DNA of 64,000 bases, taken from Desulfurellaceae bacterium bin18 (GTDB lineage Bacteria > Desulfobacterota > Binatia > Bin18). The DNA lies in contig MPMI01000026.1 of NCBI GenBank assembly GCA_002238415.1, positions 1 to 64,000 of the forward strand. Reading direction: 5' to 3'. The position numbers were made by a program, and so were the translations under genes. The notes under the pieces were generated by a model. That model was not told where the DNA came from. It worked only from the letters and a program-made list of their open reading frames with translations, and made no database searches. Below are positions 14,120 to 23,430 of the stretch, in pieces. Position 1 is the stretch's first letter. The number at the start of each line of letters is the position of its first letter.

Positions 14120-14277
14120 GGGTATCCCCTCCTCGTCGTTAAAGTCGGGTCCGCAGAATACCGATAGGTAATTGGCGCTGAGTATAGACCGGTATGATTG
14201 TTTTTCTCAAGCGTACGTGGCTAAATGCAGAGTGTCGTACGCTAATAATACGAGCGGCAAAACGAGAGGAGGGCAGT

Positions 14278-15816
14278 ATGGCAGACGAGACGGTCCAGAC
14301 CGAGCTGTCCGAAAGGGCGCGCGGCTGGCTCAAATACCTGTACCGCAAGGCCATGGTGGACGACGACTGGTCCAAAGACGGTCGGCCATCTGAAATGTGG
14401 GACGATAAAAGCCTGCCCCCCATGGGGAATTTTCATCGCTTCGATGCCGTAGACTCGTCCTACGCGGTCGCCATGATGAGCGACATCACGCCGGCCTGGC
14501 GCGAGGTGTACAGCAAGATTCTGGAAAGCCTAGTTGACCGGATTACCGACTACTGGGGGACCTATGACTGGTCCGAGCAGATCGGCCCCGACCCGCAGCG
14601 CGAGCACTATCCGGATGAGTTTTTCCCCTTGCTCATTCCCAACGAGCTCCGCGGGGAATACGACACGCCGGGCTGGGCTGCAAACGGGGTTGAGCCGTGG
14701 GGCTATGAGCCCGACCCGATCAAGGCCGCCGGAGCGATTTACTACAAAGGCTTTCTGTCGCTGACCATGGGCTTACACCTGTATGTGTCGGGTGACCGAA
14801 AATATAATGACGGTTTCAGCGTCGTGAATAATGGCGAGCATACGTTTCACTACACCCACACCAGCATGAATGAGTACATCAGCGACCAGTGGTGTAGCAG
14901 ACCCGAGGGCTCGCATTGAGAGAACACCAAAGTGTGGCCGCTGTGACTCACGGTCACCAGCCTCGGTCTGAGGCTTTACGACACCTTCTATAACGGCAAC
15001 ACGTTTCGCGCGTTTGAGCAGTGGTACGAGTACGCTAAGCAAAACTATATTGCCCCGTCCGAGGACCCGCTTCTGCCCGAGTGGGTGACCATCTATTACG
15101 ACCCGTTGATTGATTACAATAACACCCTGCCCGCCGTCTTTAGCTGGATTATGTGGGGGTTTTACCTATTGCCGAACGACCGGGCCATGGCCACTCGCTT
15201 TTATGAGACCGTCAAACGAGACTATCTGGTCGAAAAGCCGGACGGCACGGCGTATATAACCTTCGCGCCTGGCGCGACCGAGGATCATCCATATATGACG
15301 GTCCGCGCCCTGAGTCTGGCTCAGGATCTGGGTGACACGGAGACGGCCAGGAAAATACGTTCCCATGCCGAGGCCAACTACGAGCCAACCTGGGATCGGG
15401 ACGCCGGGGAATTCTATTATGGCTTTGGACTGAACGAACCCTATCCGCGCGGGCAGTATAACGCCAATCTGATGGTGGCTGAGGTCGGTGGCCCAGGTGC
15501 GTGGTCCCGCATCTATACCGAGCCGAACCTGGAGAAGTTCGACCAGCCCACCGTATACGAGGTGGACTTTCCAAACATGGGTTTGTCACAGGCGTATTAC
15601 GACCAAGAGGAGAAGACCCTGGTCTTACGGACCTATACGGCTGACCCGGCCGCCCAGGGACGACCGACCAGCTTTCGCGTCAAGAACTTGCAGCAGCCGA
15701 GTACCTGTCGGGTGCTCATGGACGGTCAGGCGTGGGACAACTGGAGCGTGCAGGGCGGCGAGATTGAGGTCTCAACCGAGATCGGTGTACATGCGTTCCA
15801 GATTATTGAAACGTGA
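14278..15816 (+). CDS. Linalool dehydratase/isomerase-like selenoprotein with two Sec (TGA) codons (512 aa)
   Basis: One frame runs from ATG 14278 (AGGAGG nearby) to TGA 15814-15816 and is broken only by TGA at 14917 (codon 214) and 14944 (codon 223). Around them the text reads PEGSH-U-ENTKVWPL-U-LTVTSLGL. The fold resembles linalool dehydratase/isomerase (LinD): YYKGFLSLTMGLHLYVSG corresponds to the LinD segment around its KGHLNL helix. As I recall the LinD structure, the active-site cysteines are C171 and C180, also nine residues apart, followed by a helix ending in L-x-x-YD. Both TGAs therefore replace catalytic cysteines. LinD adds or removes water at terpene tertiary alcohols. The substrate here is unknown. 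SECIS-like hairpins follow each TGA. Downstream DUF169 is probably cotranscribed. Reading it as two genes or a pseudogene is less likely, because frame and motifs are otherwise intact. Confidence 0.8.
14936..14955 (+). promoter_or_regulatory. Candidate SECIS hairpin for the first TGA of the LDI-like gene
   Basis: GGCCG (14936-14940) plus TG (14942-14943) pair with CA (14949-14950) and CGGTC (14951-14955), giving seven pairs with one bulged C and one G-U pair. The loop is UGACU, which is the second UGA codon plus CU, with G in the second loop position 25 nt after the first UGA. Spacing fits bacterial SECIS rules, but the stem is weaker than in the other two. Confidence 0.4.
14959..14975 (+). 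promoter_or_regulatory. Candidate SECIS hairpin for the second TGA of the LDI-like gene
   Basis: AGCCTC (14959-14964) and GAGGCT (14970-14975) form a perfect 6-bp stem with loop GGUCU (14965-14969). The first loop G lies 18 nt after the TGA at 14944-14946, within the 16-37 nt window expected for bacterial SECIS elements. A GGUC apex is also the SelB-binding feature of the E. coli fdhF hairpin. Confidence 0.7.
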
Positions 15817-15846: not shown

Positions 15847-16566
15847 ATGACTACAGCAGATTGGAACGGCTTAGCCGAACGCCTCACCAAGGCGCTGCGC
15901 CCGGTGGCCGCACCGCTGGCGATTACTTTTAGCCCGGCCCGACCGGAAAACATCCCGGACTTTGACGAGCCGCTGGCCGAACCAACGCCGGATGGGCGGA
16001 CCGGGCGGGTGGCCGCCGGCTGTGTCTTCTGGATCAAAGCCGGGGAACGCACCTTCAGCACGGTTGCCGAAGACCACGGCAACTGTAGCGTGGGTAGTCT
16101 CACCCACGGTTTCAAAACATTGGAAGAGGCCGCCCAGGGCAAGGACGTGGCGACCTTGCTGGAAAGCGGCTGGGTGGCGGAGGAGGTCTTCCCTCATATT
16201 CCAACGGTGGCGGACAAGCCTGGGGCCGTTACCTATGGGCCACTGGCGGAAACGCCGCTTGATCCCGACGTGGTGCTGCTCCGCATCAACCCGCACGCCG
16301 CCATGGTGCTCTCGGACGCCCTACCCGATCTCAAGATCGAGGGTAAGCCGCAGTGTCATATCGTGGCCATGGCGAAAGACGGCCAGGTCGCCGTGAGTGT
16401 CGGCTGCGCGCTGAGCCGGGCGCGAACCGGCATGCAGGCCACCGAGATGACGTGCACCATTCCCGCCCGCCGTCTGGCTGAGGTCCTCGATAGAGTAGAA
16501 CAGACATCACGGATTGATACACTGGTTGCGCGCTACGCCGGAGAAGACGCCCGCCGCTTTCAGTAA
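15847..16566 (+). CDS. DUF169 family protein (239 aa)
   Basis: A member of the DUF169 family, with the conserved stretch CVFWIKAGERTF followed by AEDHGNCSVG and a THGF turn, and the late SVGCALSRARTGM strand. ATG 15847 is used because GAGGAG is eight bases upstream; a GTG at 15823 is less likely. It starts 30 bases after the LDI-like stop, so the pair is probably an operon. DUF169 proteins are soluble, often occur beside metal- or cofactor-linked enzymes and carry conserved cysteines that might bind metal or substrate, but no reaction is established. A decayed copy of the same gene lies at 10834-10911 after an unrelated SDR. Confidence 0.8.
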   Translation: MTTADWNGLAERLTKALRPVAAPLAITFSPARPENIPDFDEPLAEPTPDGRTGRVAAGCVFWIKAGERTFSTVAEDHGNCSVGSLTHGFKTLEEAAQGKDVATLLESGWVAEEVFPHIPTVADKPGAVTYGPLAETPLDPDVVLLRINPHAAMVLSDALPDLKIEGKPQCHIVAMAKDGQVAVSVGCALSRARTGMQATEMTCTIPARRLAEVLDRVEQTSRIDTLVARYAGEDARRFQ

Positions 16567-16949: not shown

Positions 16950-17897
16950 TCAGCGGATCGCAACGGGATTGACAATCGTCTGTACCGCCCCGGCCATGCG
17001 TGGCGTGCCGAGCACGAACATGAACTCGTAGGCCGCATCTGCGGCCAGCGCAGCCGTGTTCATGTTCTCGAGGATGTAGGTGCCGTTCTTGGCCAATAAC
17101 TCCTGGTGGACCGGAAAGCGCTCGGCCTCCTTCTCGAACGGGATGGCCTCCAGCGCCCAGGTGTCCGCCCCGACCGCCACGACGCCTTTCCCGGCCAGGT
17201 AGCGCGCGCCCTCGACGCCAATACCCGGTTCAGGAAAGCCTAGCTTCGGCTCGCCCTCACCCATCTGCGCGAATTGCTCCAGCCAGCCGGTGTGGAACAG
17301 CACCACATCGCCTTCCCGGATTTCTATACCTTGTCTCTTTACGACCTCGTCGATCTCCTTGCTGTTGAAGGCCGTACCGTTAGGCACGATGTCGACCGCA
17401 TAGTATTTCGTCATATCCAGCAGCACACCGCGCGCCACGATGGGTGGGATGTTCTCCACACCGAACTTCTTGATGCCCGTGAGCGAGAGGAAGTCCTGCG
17501 TCTTCCAGCCGTTGTAATGCACATGATCGATGCCGACGTGACCGAACCCGTCGATTTGACTGCCGACCCCGAGCCAGGTAACGGCCAAGTCGTCGGTGGT
17601 GGTAAGCTCGTTCGGTCCCCCCAGCACGGTATCCCAGACGTACACCTTGTAGTGGCGGGGCGGATAGGCCGGCGTATCGGGGCCGGTCACCATCCCGAGC
17701 GCGTACGTCTTGCCGGTTTTGACCAGACTGGCCGCGAGCTTCACGCGTTCAGGTGTGATGTAGTTCGCGCTTCCGATCTCATCCTCCGGCCCCCACTTCG
17801 ATTGCGTCCATTCTTGTCCAGCGGCCGGAGAACCCCACACGAGGACGACCGCCAGCAGTGTTCCGAACAATACCTGTCGAGATTGTCGCTTGCTCAT
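16950..17897 (-). CDS. Secreted cyclase-family (kynurenine-formamidase-like) metal hydrolase (315 aa)
   Basis: A cyclase-fold protein (PF04199 type). The first 27 residues are a signal peptide (LFGTLLAVVLVWGSPAAG) followed by the start motif WGPEDEIGSANYI, so it should be exported. The metal-binding region reads QIDGFGHVGIDHVHYNG, where H and D residues replace the usual HxGTHxD spacing. DVVLFHTGW and GVEGARYLAGKGVVAVGAD are also standard for the fold. These enzymes hydrolyse formamides or act on cyclic substrates with Zn or Mn. It stands alone on the minus strand with no clear operon partner. Confidence 0.85.
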   Translation of the reverse strand: MSKRQSRQVLFGTLLAVVLVWGSPAAGQEWTQSKWGPEDEIGSANYITPERVKLAASLVKTGKTYALGMVTGPDTPAYPPRHYKVYVWDTVLGGPNELTTTDDLAVTWLGVGSQIDGFGHVGIDHVHYNGWKTQDFLSLTGIKKFGVENIPPIVARGVLLDMTKYYAVDIVPNGTAFNSKEIDEVVKRQGIEIREGDVVLFHTGWLEQFAQMGEGEPKLGFPEPGIGVEGARYLAGKGVVAVGADTWALEAIPFEKEAERFPVHQELLAKNGTYILENMNTAALAADAAYEFMFVLGTPRMAGAVQTIVNPVAIR

Positions 17898-18098
17898 ACG
17901 CTCACTCCTATACGCAACCTACTATACGACGCATCCTGAATGTAAAGCGTAAACTGCTCTTCGATCTTGCAGGGTAGTTTTCAGCCTCCGCGTGACAGCG
18001 GATCGCCAGCTATCTTTCTTTTTTCACCTGCGCTATGCTGCCGGACCTTTGAAGACGGGCGTTAGAAGATTGCTACTACCCGAAGGAGGATACACAGC

Positions 18099-19193
18099 AT
18101 GACACAACTCGATTCACCGATGCAGATCGGCATGGCCGCAATCTGCCAAAACCCGGCCCAGAAGATCTCGGACTATGAGGTCTACAAAAATGAGATTCGG
18201 TTGGCCGATTTGGCCGAGCCGCTTGGCTTTGACTCGATTTGGAGCGTTGAGCACCACTTTACCGATTACACCATGGTGCCCGATGTCCTCCAGTTCCTGA
18301 CCTATATGGCGGGTCGGACCAAGACGGTCAAACTGGGTACGATGGTCGTCGTGCTACCCTGGCACGATCCCATGCGGGCGGCGGAAGAAATTGCGATGTT
18401 GGACGATATGAGTGACGGGCGGTTGATTCTAGGGCTCGGCCGCGGCGCCGGGCAGGTCGAGTTCGAGGGCTTCCGGGTCGATATGGGTGAGTCCCGCGAA
18501 CGCTTTGTCGAGGCCGCGGATATGGTCCTGACCGGACTCGAACAGGGCTACTGCGAGTATGCGGGTCAGTACTATACCCAGCCCAAGAAAGACATCCGTC
18601 CCAAGCCGTTCAAATCCTTTAAGGGCCGGACGTATGCCGCTGCGGTTTCACCCGAGTCGTCCGAGATCATGGCTCGCCTGGGCGTCGGCATCCTGATCAT
18701 TCCCCAGAAGCCGTGGGAAGACGTGGCGGTAGAGCTGGAGACGTACCGGACGGTCTACCGTGAGGCCAACGGGGCCGAGGCACCGGCGCCGGTCGCCGGC
18801 GGCTGGGTCTTCTGCGATAAGGATGCCGGCCGTGCCGAAGAGATGGCCCGGCGCTACATCGGCGCCTACTGGCAGTCGGCCATGAAGCACTACAATTTTG
18901 GTGGTGACCATTTCGCCAAGACCAAGGGCTACGAATACTACGGCAAGATGTCTGAAGCGATGGGCAGTGTCGAAGGCGTGACCGACTTTTTCCTCAACCT
19001 CCAGGTCTGGGGCACACCGGACCAGTGTTTTGAAAAAGTCCTTGAGATCCGCTCCAAGATCGGCTGCGATGCCTTCACCGGTGTGTTCAGCTACGGCGGT
19101 ATGCCGTATGAAGACAGCGAGCAGAGCATGCGGCTGTTCGCGGCTGAAGTCATGCCGCGCTTGCAGCAGTTGGACCAAAAAGCGGTCGCCTAA
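18099..19193 (+). CDS. LLM-class flavin-dependent oxidoreductase (364 aa)
   Basis: Complete bacterial-luciferase-like protein. Features are FDSIWSVEHHFTDY near the N-terminus, KLGTMVVVLPWHDP, LILGLGRGAGQVEF and a C-terminal VWGTPDQCFEKV followed by FSYGGMPYEDSE. Start ATG 18099 has AAGGAGG nearby. It probably uses FMNH2 or F420H2 to oxidise a hydrophobic ketone, alkane or sulfonate. It stands alone and is followed by a strong hairpin at 19213. A decayed paralogue occurs at 54850-55109, sharing LQV-x-GTP-x-QC and the GGMP motif. Confidence 0.9.
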   Translation: MTQLDSPMQIGMAAICQNPAQKISDYEVYKNEIRLADLAEPLGFDSIWSVEHHFTDYTMVPDVLQFLTYMAGRTKTVKLGTMVVVLPWHDPMRAAEEIAMLDDMSDGRLILGLGRGAGQVEFEGFRVDMGESRERFVEAADMVLTGLEQGYCEYAGQYYTQPKKDIRPKPFKSFKGRTYAAAVSPESSEIMARLGVGILIIPQKPWEDVAVELETYRTVYREANGAEAPAPVAGGWVFCDKDAGRAEEMARRYIGAYWQSAMKHYNFGGDHFAKTKGYEYYGKMSEAMGSVEGVTDFFLNLQVWGTPDQCFEKVLEIRSKIGCDAFTGVFSYGGMPYEDSEQSMRLFAAEVMPRLQQLDQKAVA

Positions 19194-19212
19194 GCCTCCC
19201 TTCCGTTCTCTT

Positions 19213-19242
19213 GGCTCCCGCCCATGTCACCGGGCGGGAGCC
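19213..19242 (+). terminator. Strong hairpin after the LLM gene
   Basis: GGCTCCCGCCC (19213-19223) pairs perfectly with GGGCGGGAGCC (19232-19242) with an 8-nt loop, about 20 bases after the stop at 19193. The following bases are only moderately T-rich (GAACTCTTCC). It is probably a terminator for the LLM gene. Confidence 0.65.
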
Positions 19243-19299
19243 GAACTCTTCCTCGCGCCTTTCATTGCCGTCTCGAACCTCTGAGACAGGGCCTTCACA

Positions 19300-20160
19300 T
19301 TAATCCTGGGCGGAATCCTGTACATTCAGGCGGTTACAAATGAAACGATCTGGAGTTGCATCTCGAGCATAAACACGAATTTTCGCTTGGCTAAGCGAAC
19401 TCTCATTCATACGCATTAACAAATCCTTTGGACGCTGCTGCCTCATGATGCTAGCGAGACGGTCAGTCTTGTTTGCCATGAACGCCTTCCATGGGCTAAT
19501 TGGCAACGCAATCACCAAGTCAGGATCGTCAATGCCCGTCGTAAAGATGCAGGGTCGGTCCGCAAGCAACAAGTGGTTTTTCTGCCCTCTGAAATCCCAT
19601 AACCGCCACTTCATGTCGAGTATCTTCTGACCAATATCTGGATTACAGACAAAACTTGGAAAGGACATCGTGCCAAAATTCTCGATGAGGCCTGGAAACT
19701 GCTGCTCAGACCACTCCATCAGTGTGGGTGGATCAGTAGTTTCCGATATTGCCTCATATTCTTCCGGCCTTTCATCCAACGAGTCTTTCAAGGAATTGGA
19801 ACCTTCCATGTGAAGTTGCGAGACAACTTCTGGAGTACGCGATCGAAGCGACATTATGAAATACACCCAAACACAGCGGTCCTCCGGCGTCAGGTCAGCG
19901 AAGCCCGTGGCTGCCATCTTTTGCAATACCCTAGCTGCCAAATCGTCGAGACGCTGCAGGAATTTTGTCCCCACAGCTTGTTGCTCCATTCCAGCAACCT
20001 CGGACGTTGTCAAAGCATAAAGGTCATCCTCATAGCCGGTAAACTTAGGCGCCAGACGTGACGAACGAAGATGCTGTGGATCAACCCAGAACACCTCAAT
20101 TTTCTCGTCCGCACCGGCCCAGGCCCTCAAAAGAAATTGGGGTATGTAGTGGTGTCGCAT
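19300..20160 (-). CDS. DUF4238 family protein (286 aa)
   Basis: Begins with the family signature MRHHYIPQFLLRAWA, then an FWVDPQHLR segment, an acidic helical middle and a late VYARDATPDRFICNRLN. DUF4238 proteins are common in accessory regions and their biochemistry is not well established; some sit in defence islands. The gene is clearly more AT-rich than its neighbours (for example at 19330-19480), suggesting later acquisition. It is monocistronic. No nuclease or transmembrane motif is visible beyond the conserved HHYIPQF start. Confidence 0.85.
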   Translation of the reverse strand: MRHHYIPQFLLRAWAGADEKIEVFWVDPQHLRSSRLAPKFTGYEDDLYALTTSEVAGMEQQAVGTKFLQRLDDLAARVLQKMAATGFADLTPEDRCVWVYFIMSLRSRTPEVVSQLHMEGSNSLKDSLDERPEEYEAISETTDPPTLMEWSEQQFPGLIENFGTMSFPSFVCNPDIGQKILDMKWRLWDFRGQKNHLLLADRPCIFTTGIDDPDLVIALPISPWKAFMANKTDRLASIMRQQRPKDLLMRMNESSLSQAKIRVYARDATPDRFICNRLNVQDSAQD

Positions 20161-20322
20161 ATGACATGTCTTCAGCTTAACTCTATGTTGTCAGTATCTC
20201 ATGACTTGTAATATCGTCCCAGTCCGTCTTGCCGCTCGGCGACCGACGCAGCGTAGAAGGCGAACATATAGACAATTCGTCCGGTCAGGCGCTGTACCAT
20301 CAATAGACATACCACAGACGAC

Positions 20323-20352
20323 GAGACCCCGAGGAAAGCACCCCGGGGTCTC
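20323..20352. terminator. Hairpin between DUF4238 and GST genes
   Basis: GAGACCCCG (20323-20331) pairs perfectly with CGGGGTCTC (20344-20352) around a 12-nt loop. It lies about 65 bases past the minus-strand GST stop (20418), in the right place for its terminator. No long T-run. The rest of 20161-20417 holds nothing else recognised. Confidence 0.5.
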
Positions 20353-20417
20353 ACGTGCATTGATGGATCAGATCAAAAATGTGGTTCAGGTGGGCACTGC
20401 CTCACCCGACACCCTAA

Positions 20418-21140
20418 CTATTCCGGGACGGGGCGGGCGCGTTGGTTGTAGAGCATTTTGCGTAGGCGGTCTTTCTCTTCCTGTGAGAGCTTGGTGACGT
20501 CGAACCCGAGGTCGCTGCCGACGGCCATGCCTTTTTTGACGCCCTCGCGTTCCGAGAGTTCCTCGTACCAGCGCTTGAAGTATTTGAACTCGTTGATGTC
20601 CTGACCCTGGGACTCCCAGTTAACCGTCCAGGGGTAACAGATCATGTCGGCAATGGTGTATTCGTTCCCGGCCAGATAGGGCTGCCGGTATAACTGGTTG
20701 TTCATCACGCCGAACATGCGATTGACCTCATCCGTAAAACGCCGGACCGCGTAGGTCTGATCGCCCTGGTCGTCGCCCAAACGGCGAAAATGGCCGCACT
20801 CGCCACTCTTGGGTCCCTGGTTGGCCATCTGCCACATCACCCACTGATTGACATCGTAACGGCCACGGACATCCTGGGGATAAAACTGTCCGGCCTTTTC
20901 AGCGATATACATCATCATCGCCCCGGACTCAAAAATGCTGATCGGCTCGCCCCCGCCGAGTGGCTCGTGGTCTACCAGGGCCGGCATCCGGTTATTGGGG
21001 CAGATTCTGAGAAACTCGTCCGTGAACTGATCGCCCTGGGCGATATTGCACGGGATCATCTTGTACGGCATGCCGCACTCTTCCAATAGAATGGTAACTT
21101 TCTTACCGTTCGGGGTGGGCCAGTAGTGTAAATCGATCAT
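20418..21140 (-). CDS. Glutathione S-transferase family protein, YfcG/Ure2-like (240 aa)
   Basis: The N-terminal thioredoxin-like domain begins MIDLHYWPTPNGKKVTILLEE, with the NGKK active-site turn typical of Nu-class (YfcG/Ure2p) GSTs. NNRMPALVDHEP gives the cis-proline and FESGAMMMYIAEK the gamma-Glu contact. The helical C-domain has GNEYTIADMICYPW. It would conjugate or reduce disulfides and electrophiles with glutathione. It runs with the LLM gene at 21169-22014 in the same direction and 28 bases apart, so the two may be coexpressed. Length is normal. Confidence 0.9.
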   Translation of the reverse strand: MIDLHYWPTPNGKKVTILLEECGMPYKMIPCNIAQGDQFTDEFLRICPNNRMPALVDHEPLGGGEPISIFESGAMMMYIAEKAGQFYPQDVRGRYDVNQWVMWQMANQGPKSGECGHFRRLGDDQGDQTYAVRRFTDEVNRMFGVMNNQLYRQPYLAGNEYTIADMICYPWTVNWESQGQDINEFKYFKRWYEELSEREGVKKGMAVGSDLGFDVTKLSQEEKDRLRKMLYNQRARPVPE

Positions 21141-21168
21141 AGGTTCTTCCTCCTGAGGGTTTGTTCGT

Positions 21169-22014
21169 CTAGCTCATACTCGACATAAACGCAGCGTACT
21201 TATCCAGAATCGGCAAGACCTTGTCTCGGCTCTCGGACGGAACAGCGAAGATGGAGCGTTCAATCCCCAGTTCCTCATACTGATTGATAACTGCCTCCTC
21301 GGCAGGAGCCATAAAAGCGGACACGGCCAGGTCCGAGGCCTGACGACCGAACTTTTCCGCCCGCGCGTGCATATCGCCGATCCAGCCCTTGAGGTCAGGA
21401 ATTCGTGGCCCGATCGGGATCCAACCGTCGCAGTAGTTGGCGACCCGATTCAAACCGCCTGGGGTGTGGGCACCCAGCAGAATGGGGGGATGGGGTTTCT
21501 GTAGCGGTTTGGGATAGGACCAGATCGGATCGAAGTTCACAAACTCGCCGTGATACTCGGCTTCCTCTTCAGTCCAGATGGCTTTCATGGCCTCGATTTT
21601 TTCGCGCAGAATCTTCCAGCGGCGATCGAAGGGCGTGCCGTGGTTTTCCATTTCTTCGGCATTCCAGCCACCGCCGATCCCGAACAGCAGGCGACCGTTC
21701 GAGAGCTGGTCTACCGTGGCCACTTCCTTGGCGAGCTTGATGGGGTCGTGCTCCTGCACGAGGCAGATACCGCTGCCGACTTTGAGGGTGGTCGTGGCAG
21801 CCGCGGCGGCCATCAGCGACGCGAACAAATCGTGGGTATGCCAATAGTCTTTGGGTAGCTCCCCGCCGCCCGGCCACGGACTGCGCCGACTGGCGGGGAT
21901 ATGGGTATGCTCCGGATACCAGACCGACTCAAAGCCGCGGTCTTCGCACTCTTTGGCAAACTCGTCAGGACGGACGGCGTAATCCGTAGCGAACATGACA
22001 CTACCAAATTTCAT
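21169..22014 (-). CDS. LLM-class F420-dependent oxidoreductase (281 aa)
   Basis: Short LLM of the TIGR03619 kind. It starts MKFGSVMFATDYAVRPDEFA, then GFESVWYPEHTHIP, KVGSGICLVQEHDP, LFGIGGGWNAEEMENHGT and the proline-rich KPLQKPHPPILLGA. Start ATG 22014 has AGGAGG in the leader (22020-22025); a longer frame upstream lacks such a site. Likely F420-dependent hydride transfer. It is upstream of and codirectional with the GST gene. It is close in type to the LLM at 53629-54612, with which it shares the GGGWN/GSGWM loop and the PRPP or PHPP motif. Confidence 0.9.
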   Translation of the reverse strand: MKFGSVMFATDYAVRPDEFAKECEDRGFESVWYPEHTHIPASRRSPWPGGGELPKDYWHTHDLFASLMAAAAATTTLKVGSGICLVQEHDPIKLAKEVATVDQLSNGRLLFGIGGGWNAEEMENHGTPFDRRWKILREKIEAMKAIWTEEEAEYHGEFVNFDPIWSYPKPLQKPHPPILLGAHTPGGLNRVANYCDGWIPIGPRIPDLKGWIGDMHARAEKFGRQASDLAVSAFMAPAEEAVINQYEELGIERSIFAVPSESRDKVLPILDKYAAFMSSMS

Positions 22015-22272
22015 ACTCTCCTCCTTTGCATTGAAAGCTCTCCGCACTTCATGCGAATTCCGCAGGAGAGTCAAGCGGTAAAAGGATGAAAGAGGGATAA
22101 GCGCTGCCCTCCTGACTTGCATATTCGCAAGCGAACCTGCCTCACCCCGGACCTAGCGCTCTTGAGTGCAAGCAGATAGACACATCAGCAGGGCTACGAA
22201 CGTCTGGACAAAGCGCCGGTGTCCTTTCCGCATACACGGTATTCGTCAGTCTGTTTTTGAGGAGGACAGTGC

Positions 22273-23430
22273 ATGGCAACCCAAACCACATTCCCCTACT
22301 CAGGGGCAATAGACGCCGATGGCCATATTCTTGAGCCGCCTGACATCTGGGAGAAATATATTGACCCCCAGTATCGGGACCGGGCCATCCGCCTGCGTAC
22401 CAATGAGCAGAGCCTGGAATACCTGGAAATCGATGGCCGGCCCTTTAAATATATGCCCGCAGGTTCCTTGGCTGCCTTTGGAGCCATGGGCAAGAAGCCG
22501 CCCGACCGAGACAAGCCGGACCCGAATATGACCTATGTCGGCGAGGCACCGTTTGGGTCCATGGACGCCCAGGAGCGAGTCCGGCGACTGGATCAAGAAG
22601 GCTTGGAAAAGGCTATCCTATATCCCAGTATCGGGCTGATCTGGGAGACTGAAGAAGTTGGCGATCTGGCGTATCAGGCTGCCTTGACGACTGCGTATAA
22701 CCGCTGGATTACGGAGTTCTGTGCGGATACCAATGGCCGGCTGATTCCGGTCGCCCATATTTCCATGGGCGATCCCCATGAGGCCGCAAAGGAGCTGGAA
22801 CGCTCGGTCAAAGCCGGAGCCAAAGGGGCATTTTTTGCGCCGTTCACACCGACGGATAAATCCCACGCCCATCCGGACTACGACCCGTTCTGGGCCAAGG
22901 CCCAGGAACTCGATGTGCCGGTCGGTATTCATCCGGCTGGCGAGCCACCCTCCAAGCGCGTCCACCAACGTTTCAAAGACATGCAGAAATGGGCCATGTG
23001 GCATTTTAATGTGCATGGCGGCCAAGGCCCGCTCCAGGCGTTTACGGCCATGTTTCAATACGGCCTGTTTGAGCGCTTTCCGCATATTAAAGTCATTGTC
23101 TTAGAGTCAGGCGCAGGCTGGGCCGGGTATCTGCTCAATCGGATGGACGCCGTGTATGACAGTCCGCTGGGTGATACGGTGCGGCTCAAAGAAAAGCCGA
23201 GCTATTACTTTCAGCGTCAGTGCTGGATTTCCGGCGATCCGGACGAAAAAGCCTTTGGCCACGTCGTAGACTTTGTCGGTGCGGACAAATTCTTCTGGGC
23301 CTCGGACTTCCCCCATCCCGATCACCCCGACAATTACATGGAAGAGCTGAGTGAACTCGTCGCGCCGATGTCAGAATCGACCCGCCAGAAGGTGTTGGGA
23401 GAGAACGTGACGAAGGTCTACGGCCTGTAA
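22273..23430 (+). CDS. Amidohydrolase-2 (ACMSD-like) family metal hydrolase (385 aa)
   Basis: N-terminal IDADGHILEPPDIW is the DxDxH metal motif of the ACMSD/isoprenylcysteine-like amidohydrolase-2 family. It is followed by IDPQYRDRAIRL, a GIHPAGE strand with the next metal histidine and C-terminal WASDFPHPDHPDN with the metal aspartate. These enzymes perform non-oxidative decarboxylation or hydration of aromatic and related acids with Zn or Mn. Start ATG 22273 has a strong GAGGAGG upstream. It is the first of five such paralogues in the window and most resembles the one at 62085-63236 (shared IDPQYRDRAVRL). Confidence 0.9.
   Translation: MATQTTFPYSGAIDADGHILEPPDIWEKYIDPQYRDRAIRLRTNEQSLEYLEIDGRPFKYMPAGSLAAFGAMGKKPPDRDKPDPNMTYVGEAPFGSMDAQERVRRLDQEGLEKAILYPSIGLIWETEEVGDLAYQAALTTAYNRWITEFCADTNGRLIPVAHISMGDPHEAAKELERSVKAGAKGAFFAPFTPTDKSHAHPDYDPFWAKAQELDVPVGIHPAGEPPSKRVHQRFKDMQKWAMWHFNVHGGQGPLQAFTAMFQYGLFERFPHIKVIVLESGAGWAGYLLNRMDAVYDSPLGDTVRLKEKPSYYFQRQCWISGDPDEKAFGHVVDFVGADKFFWASDFPHPDHPDNYMEELSELVAPMSESTRQKVLGENVTKVYGL

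Follow-up and report, generated by a model that had tools for sequence, protein, structure and literature searches.

Two in-frame UGA codons at the catalytic cysteine positions of an Ldi-fold bacterial enzyme are likely read as selenocysteine

How is a bacterial gene to be read when its frame contains two stop codons, both of them at the positions where a characterised enzyme of the same fold carries its catalytic cysteines? Such a gene lies in the window, by which we mean the whole 64,000-nucleotide stretch of DNA analysed here. The LDI-like gene occupies positions 14278..15816 of the forward strand and comprises 512 codons and a TGA stop when internal TGA is read as selenocysteine (Sec). A ribosome-binding site, AGGAGG, can be seen at 14267..14272 (+), 5 nt before the ATG at 14278. 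Within the frame, TGA is found only at codons 214 (14917..14919, +) and 223 (14944..14946, +), and the third TGA, at 15814-15816, is the terminal stop. The two internal codons, hereafter UGA1 and UGA2, are 27 nt or nine residues apart in the protein text SH-U-ENTKVWPL-U-LTV, which is followed by LYD, and align with the columns of Cys171 and Cys180 of LinD, respectively. The standard code cuts TGA-containing frames at UGA and, without recoding, this one splits into open reading frames at 14194-14919 and 15085-15816. An initial annotation, made from the sequence alone, had described the 512-codon frame, the two TGAs nine codons apart, the ribosome site and the residues quoted above, all of which held. 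It further claimed that both catalytic cysteines are selenocysteine. This is supported computationally, and we consider it likely that the gene encodes an Ldi-fold (PF18566) enzyme in which both active-site cysteines are Sec; the gene itself is shown, while the incorporation of selenium and the class of reaction are inferred.

With cysteine substituted at the TGAs, the protein matches Pfam Ldi (PF18566) at 72 bits, against a curated cut-off of 26.1; no NCBIfam model matches LDI-like proteins. A phmmer search against solved structures returned LinD of Castellaniella defragrans (PDB 5HLR, 5G1U, 5I3T) as the sole match, with both TGAs facing the LinD cysteines and no gap between them. As cysteine had been put into this first query, the search was repeated with X at both TGA sites, and LinD was again the only match, in an unchanged and gap-free register. 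A profile of 57 relatives also matched LinD (E 4.4e-13). An AlphaFold2 model made from the alignment of relatives (pLDDT 94.5) had LinD as its top structural match (VIA Z 36.3, rmsd 2.3 over 334 residues; next folds at Z ~21, 21.1), with a Foldseek E-value of 3.6e-14. The (alpha/alpha)6 fold common to both proteins is thus shown computationally. GH127 arabinofuranosidases, which use a catalytic cysteine in a similar barrel, gave only a weak structural match (E ~1e-5, TM ~0.3) and were set aside. PDB titles name the LinD mutants C171A/S and C180A, and mutants of both catalytic cysteines are inactive (PMC6600392). The LinD residue numbers given in the initial annotation are correct, as these titles and the gap-free alignment confirm.

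A scan of GTDB contigs found 241 relatives, the best 80 of which were kept. The final alignment held 98 sequences including the window gene, with one mis-extracted row (L124) excluded. At the two catalytic columns (columns 1 and 2), 60 sequences are Cys/Cys, 27 are Cys/Sec, 11 are Sec/Sec and none is Sec/Cys. The window gene and 10 relatives therefore have TGA at both columns, 27 more have it at the second column only, and it is confined to these two columns in the frames of all 38 TGA genes. This pattern is far beyond chance, and its conservation is shown computationally. Double Sec, the state on which the initial annotation focused, is not the commonest recoded one, since most TGA relatives are Cys/Sec. 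The sampled relatives are those closest to the query, so these counts should not be taken as family-wide frequencies; every distant Ldi protein from the same phylum is Cys/Cys. The relatives span Binatota, Chloroflexota, Proteobacteria, Actinomycetota, Tectomicrobia and Myxococcota, and the source organisms closest to the window belong to Candidatus Binatota. In three species of the same genus the gene is 95% identical and has both TGAs. Both TGAs are also kept in two genomes of another genus of the same family (42-47% identical genes, both on short contigs, one with an extra TAG). L024 and L071 contain one in-frame TAG each, which may be sequencing error or decay.

The stops within the frame could indicate a pseudogene or an assembly error. 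Against this, the identical two-TGA pattern is found in independent assemblies, and dN/dS relative to three orthologues is low downstream of the TGAs (0.10-0.11 after TGA1, 0.06-0.07 before it). With dN/dS of ~0.1, the part of the gene past the TGAs is translated and constrained, and this explanation is all but excluded.

The machinery needed to read UGA as Sec is shown computationally in the genome itself, which contains a tRNA-Sec with a UCA anticodon (70.7 bits), selB, selD, and a selA adjoining the tRNA-Sec. The selD sequence (genome G000, contig C78:56985-57902, L031) lies in a 759-aa open frame and is probably fused with another domain. All eight related genomes tested have selA. More broadly, selB exceeded the cut-off in 21/25 genomes with TGA genes versus 11/25 with Cys/Cys genes, and selB or a clear tRNA-Sec was found in 24/25 versus 12/25 (Fisher p 0.0003, uncorrected for kinship). 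Formate dehydrogenase was considered as a user of this machinery and rejected: it has no TGA form in the same genome and so is not the reason for the machinery. selA is also present in three congeneric genomes without a Sec/Sec gene (G001, G002 and G006), so the genus probably has further, unidentified selenoproteins. No convincing further candidate for TGA read-through was found within the window. A second explanation, that TGA specifies a different amino acid through a code change or a suppressor, could account for two open TGAs in a single frame. It is all but excluded by the occurrence of TGA only at Cys columns and by the UCA anticodon of the tRNA-Sec; moreover, several nearby genes terminate with TGA, so the codon is not generally reassigned. 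The initial annotation had named three findings that would refute it, namely absence of the sel genes, TGC or TGT at both sites on resequencing, and relatives lacking Cys at the two columns. None was met: selA, selB, selD and tRNA-Sec(UCA) are present, the TGAs recur in independent assemblies, and Cys occupies both columns in all 60 aligned relatives without TGA.

UGA2 has a textbook bacterial SECIS, as shown computationally. The hairpin, AGCCUC-GGUCU-GAGGCU, lies at 14959..14975 (+), with its loop 18 nt after UGA2. The bSECIS model calls for a loop of 3-9 nt with G in the first two loop positions, 16-37 nt from the UGA, at least 4 bp and an MFE of no more than -7.5 (PMC13188914), and the window hairpin fits it in its spacing of 18 nt, GGUCU loop, 6 bp and covariation. 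The same element recurs in 38/38 TGA genes, with a stem of 6-7 bp and a GGUYU loop always at exactly 18 nt past UGA2; in each of these genes, no more than 5% of synonymous recodings reach the same stability. By comparison, only 2/48 Cys/Cys genes have their best hairpin at the 18-nt spacing, and 1/48 has the 5-nt loop as well. Across 32 distinct sequences 100% of cells in the stem are paired, and one stem position covaries as C-G in 19, U-A in 7 and G-C in 6. A second compensatory pair is seen in the Cys/Sec genes L138/L139, where C-G becomes U-A and the protein changes from Leu to Phe and from Arg to Lys. One codon of the hairpin's 3′ arm (14971-14973 in the window) is AGG/AGA (Arg) in 31/38 TGA genes, and the matching codon is CAA/CAG (Gln) in 31/48 Cys/Cys genes; the RNA hairpin thus seems to dictate the amino acid at this codon. 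A scan of the window against Rfam at the gathering threshold gave no match. With selenoproteins of the formate dehydrogenase type, which depend on SelB and a bSECIS, the window gene shares the UGA, tRNA-Sec, selABD and a hairpin 16-37 nt away with G opening its apical loop. The GGUCU loop may resemble that of E. coli fdhF. The window enzyme differs from them in being neither a thioredoxin-fold nor a metal-cofactor protein, and in having UGA2 inside the putative first SECIS loop.

This putative SECIS 1, or hairpin 1, lies at 14934..14957 (+), and its apical loop, UGACU, contains UGA2, 24 nt after UGA1. Its assignment is tentative. In the window its spacing, loop and folding energy (-11.4 kcal/mol) fit the bSECIS model, but with a z-score of only -1.4 it is not clearly more stable than shuffled sequences, and the Sec/Sec groups do not share one register. 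Folding the RNA after each TGA, a check that the initial annotation had proposed, thus yields a textbook SECIS for UGA2 and a weaker one for UGA1. UGA1 would probably be decoded via hairpin 1, although the function of the hairpin is inferred and we put this forward only tentatively. A further rival explanation is that only UGA2 is decoded well and that UGA1 acts mostly as a stop, giving a 213-residue fragment, or as a selenium-dependent attenuator. In its favour, the distance from UGA1 to the SECIS 2 loop, 45 nt, exceeds the 16-37 nt range of the model, and hairpin 1 is both weaker and variable. Against it, UGA1 persists in a number of distinct groups on the tree, always together with UGA2, and the hairpin enclosing UGA2 is more stable in Sec/Sec genes (mean -8.4 kcal/mol) than in Cys/Sec genes (-3.3 kcal/mol; Mann-Whitney p 4e-5, uncorrected for kinship). 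We regard this alternative as very unlikely. If both codons are decoded, a bolder reading is that decoding of UGA1 would have to melt hairpin 1 before UGA2 can use SECIS 2; with its UGAs only 27 nt from each other and its hairpins nested, the gene would be a natural system for studying how SelB copes with Sec codons in close succession.

The three column states need five changes on a quick tree built with the two columns masked. Most Cys/Sec proteins fall in one clade, which encloses two Chloroflexota and one Binatota Sec/Sec groups, and the Sec/Sec clade of the window is separate from it. This distribution indicates that the state has changed several times and across phyla, with the direction unresolved. 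The genome also holds a Cys/Cys paralogue (CENTKIWPYC at the site), whose 40% identity to the window gene extends along the full length, C-terminal domain included. The paralogue has Cys at both columns and no SECIS, and groups with other Cys/Cys proteins. Within L038-L112, the residue two before column 1 is Pro in 44/48 Cys/Cys genes (GPHC...C), and a third thiol at this position is associated with Sec. Separately, four Ldi-family genes (L117, L123, L127 and L128), three of them within 5 kb, were observed in one genome of the same phylum (G392, contig C34:144888-352631).

What might the paired Sec residues do? LinD and the window protein have the same two catalytic columns at the same spacing, with Glu after the first. 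They differ in that Sec replaces both Cys, identity is only ~20%, and the window protein carries an extra C-terminal beta domain (approximately residues 425-512) outside the LinD-aligned part. The column of His129, an active-site residue of LinD, holds Phe159 by alignment, and the cap disulfide of LinD (Cys48-Cys101) is absent, the only other cysteines of the window protein being 206 and 476. Unlike LinD, the window protein has no apparent signal peptide, as its N-terminus, MADETVQTELSERARGW, shows no hydrophobic stretch by eye. Given the Phe at the His129 column and the lack of both cap disulfide and signal peptide, this is probably a cytosolic enzyme acting on another substrate. The earlier label "linalool-dehydratase-like" therefore held in part: the protein is LDI-like, but without His129 and the cap disulfide linalool should not be assumed as its substrate. 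We take it to be, in all likelihood, an LDI-like selenoenzyme and not a proven linalool dehydratase, its activity and substrate not being established.

In the mechanism we propose, SelB and tRNA-Sec would insert Sec at both UGA codons, at UGA2 via the canonical SECIS, and Sec214 and Sec223 would line the barrel pocket as Cys171 and Cys180 do in LinD. One selenol would donate or accept a proton, or attack the substrate covalently, and the other would complete the reaction, in which a hydrophobic alcohol or alkene is dehydrated, hydrated or isomerised. The two Sec should act like the LinD cysteines because they occupy the same positions. In LinD both cysteines are required and must stay reduced, and acid/base or covalent schemes have been proposed (PMC6600392). 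Compared with thiols, selenols have a lower pKa, attack more readily as nucleophiles and leave more easily, properties that would fit both schemes. With Phe at the His129 column and no cap disulfide, the acid/base chemistry is inferred from homology alone. A bolder reading, which could as easily prove wrong as right, is a non-redox, cofactor-free lyase or isomerase with a selenol-selenol pair, made from an mRNA whose UGA2 sits in the apical loop of SECIS 1.

The main rival accepts both Sec but makes them a redox pair, forming a diselenide, or a selenenyl-sulphide with an extra Cys (the residue two before column 1, present in many relatives), in a peroxidase, reductase or switch. A redox function is assumed for most catalogued selenoproteins (PMC13188914), and the best hint in this direction is that Cys two before column 1 goes with Sec, occurring in 22/27 Cys/Sec genes (GCHC...U). 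Against it, the window protein has Ser at that position, LinD needs both cysteines reduced (PMC6600392), there is no thioredoxin-like fold, LinD being the sole close structural match, and no recurrent redox partner gene was seen among the listed neighbours. A redox role remains possible, and the LinD-like assignment is preferred.

The claim that no LDI-family selenoprotein had been described held within the sources searched. No Ldi, linalool or PF18566 entry appears among the 119 prokaryotic selenoprotein families and subfamilies of a May 2026 review (PMC13188914), nor does an Ldi selenoprotein appear in the searched passages of the deep-Sep (2025) and GOS survey (2008) papers. A search of the open-access literature, excluding subscription papers and preprints, found nothing linking linalool dehydratase with selenocysteine, and selenoprotein together with linalool only in unrelated contexts. 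Catalogued two-Sec selenoproteins such as MbdU, MduS and the UxxU metal-binding protein (PMC13188914) also have two Sec per protein, but differ in family and motif; in the window enzyme a spacing of nine residues separates the Sec pair, which falls on the catalytic pair of LinD. This Binatota bacterium and its relatives thus appear to read both UGAs as Sec, in what is likely a multi-phylum selenoprotein family missing from the 2026 catalogue. Sec and Cys replace each other at single columns in this family, and a Cys/Cys enzyme of the fold has already been solved and mutated, so the benefit of selenium to a lyase- or isomerase-type active site could be tested here.

The gene neighbourhoods are varied and indicate no substrate. 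No conserved operon was found among the neighbours, with abhydrolase, GST, SDR, phosphotriesterase and DUF169 genes in different groups. In the window, a DUF169 gene (PF02596, 78.3 bits; 15847..16566, +) lies directly downstream and is probably co-transcribed, and a gene of the DUF169 cluster is next downstream in 5 of the loci with listed neighbours (4 Sec/Sec and 1 Cys/Sec). Further downstream, at 16950-23430, a catabolic-looking region contains genes for a cyclase, two luciferase-like monooxygenases, a DUF4238 protein, a GST and an amidohydrolase.
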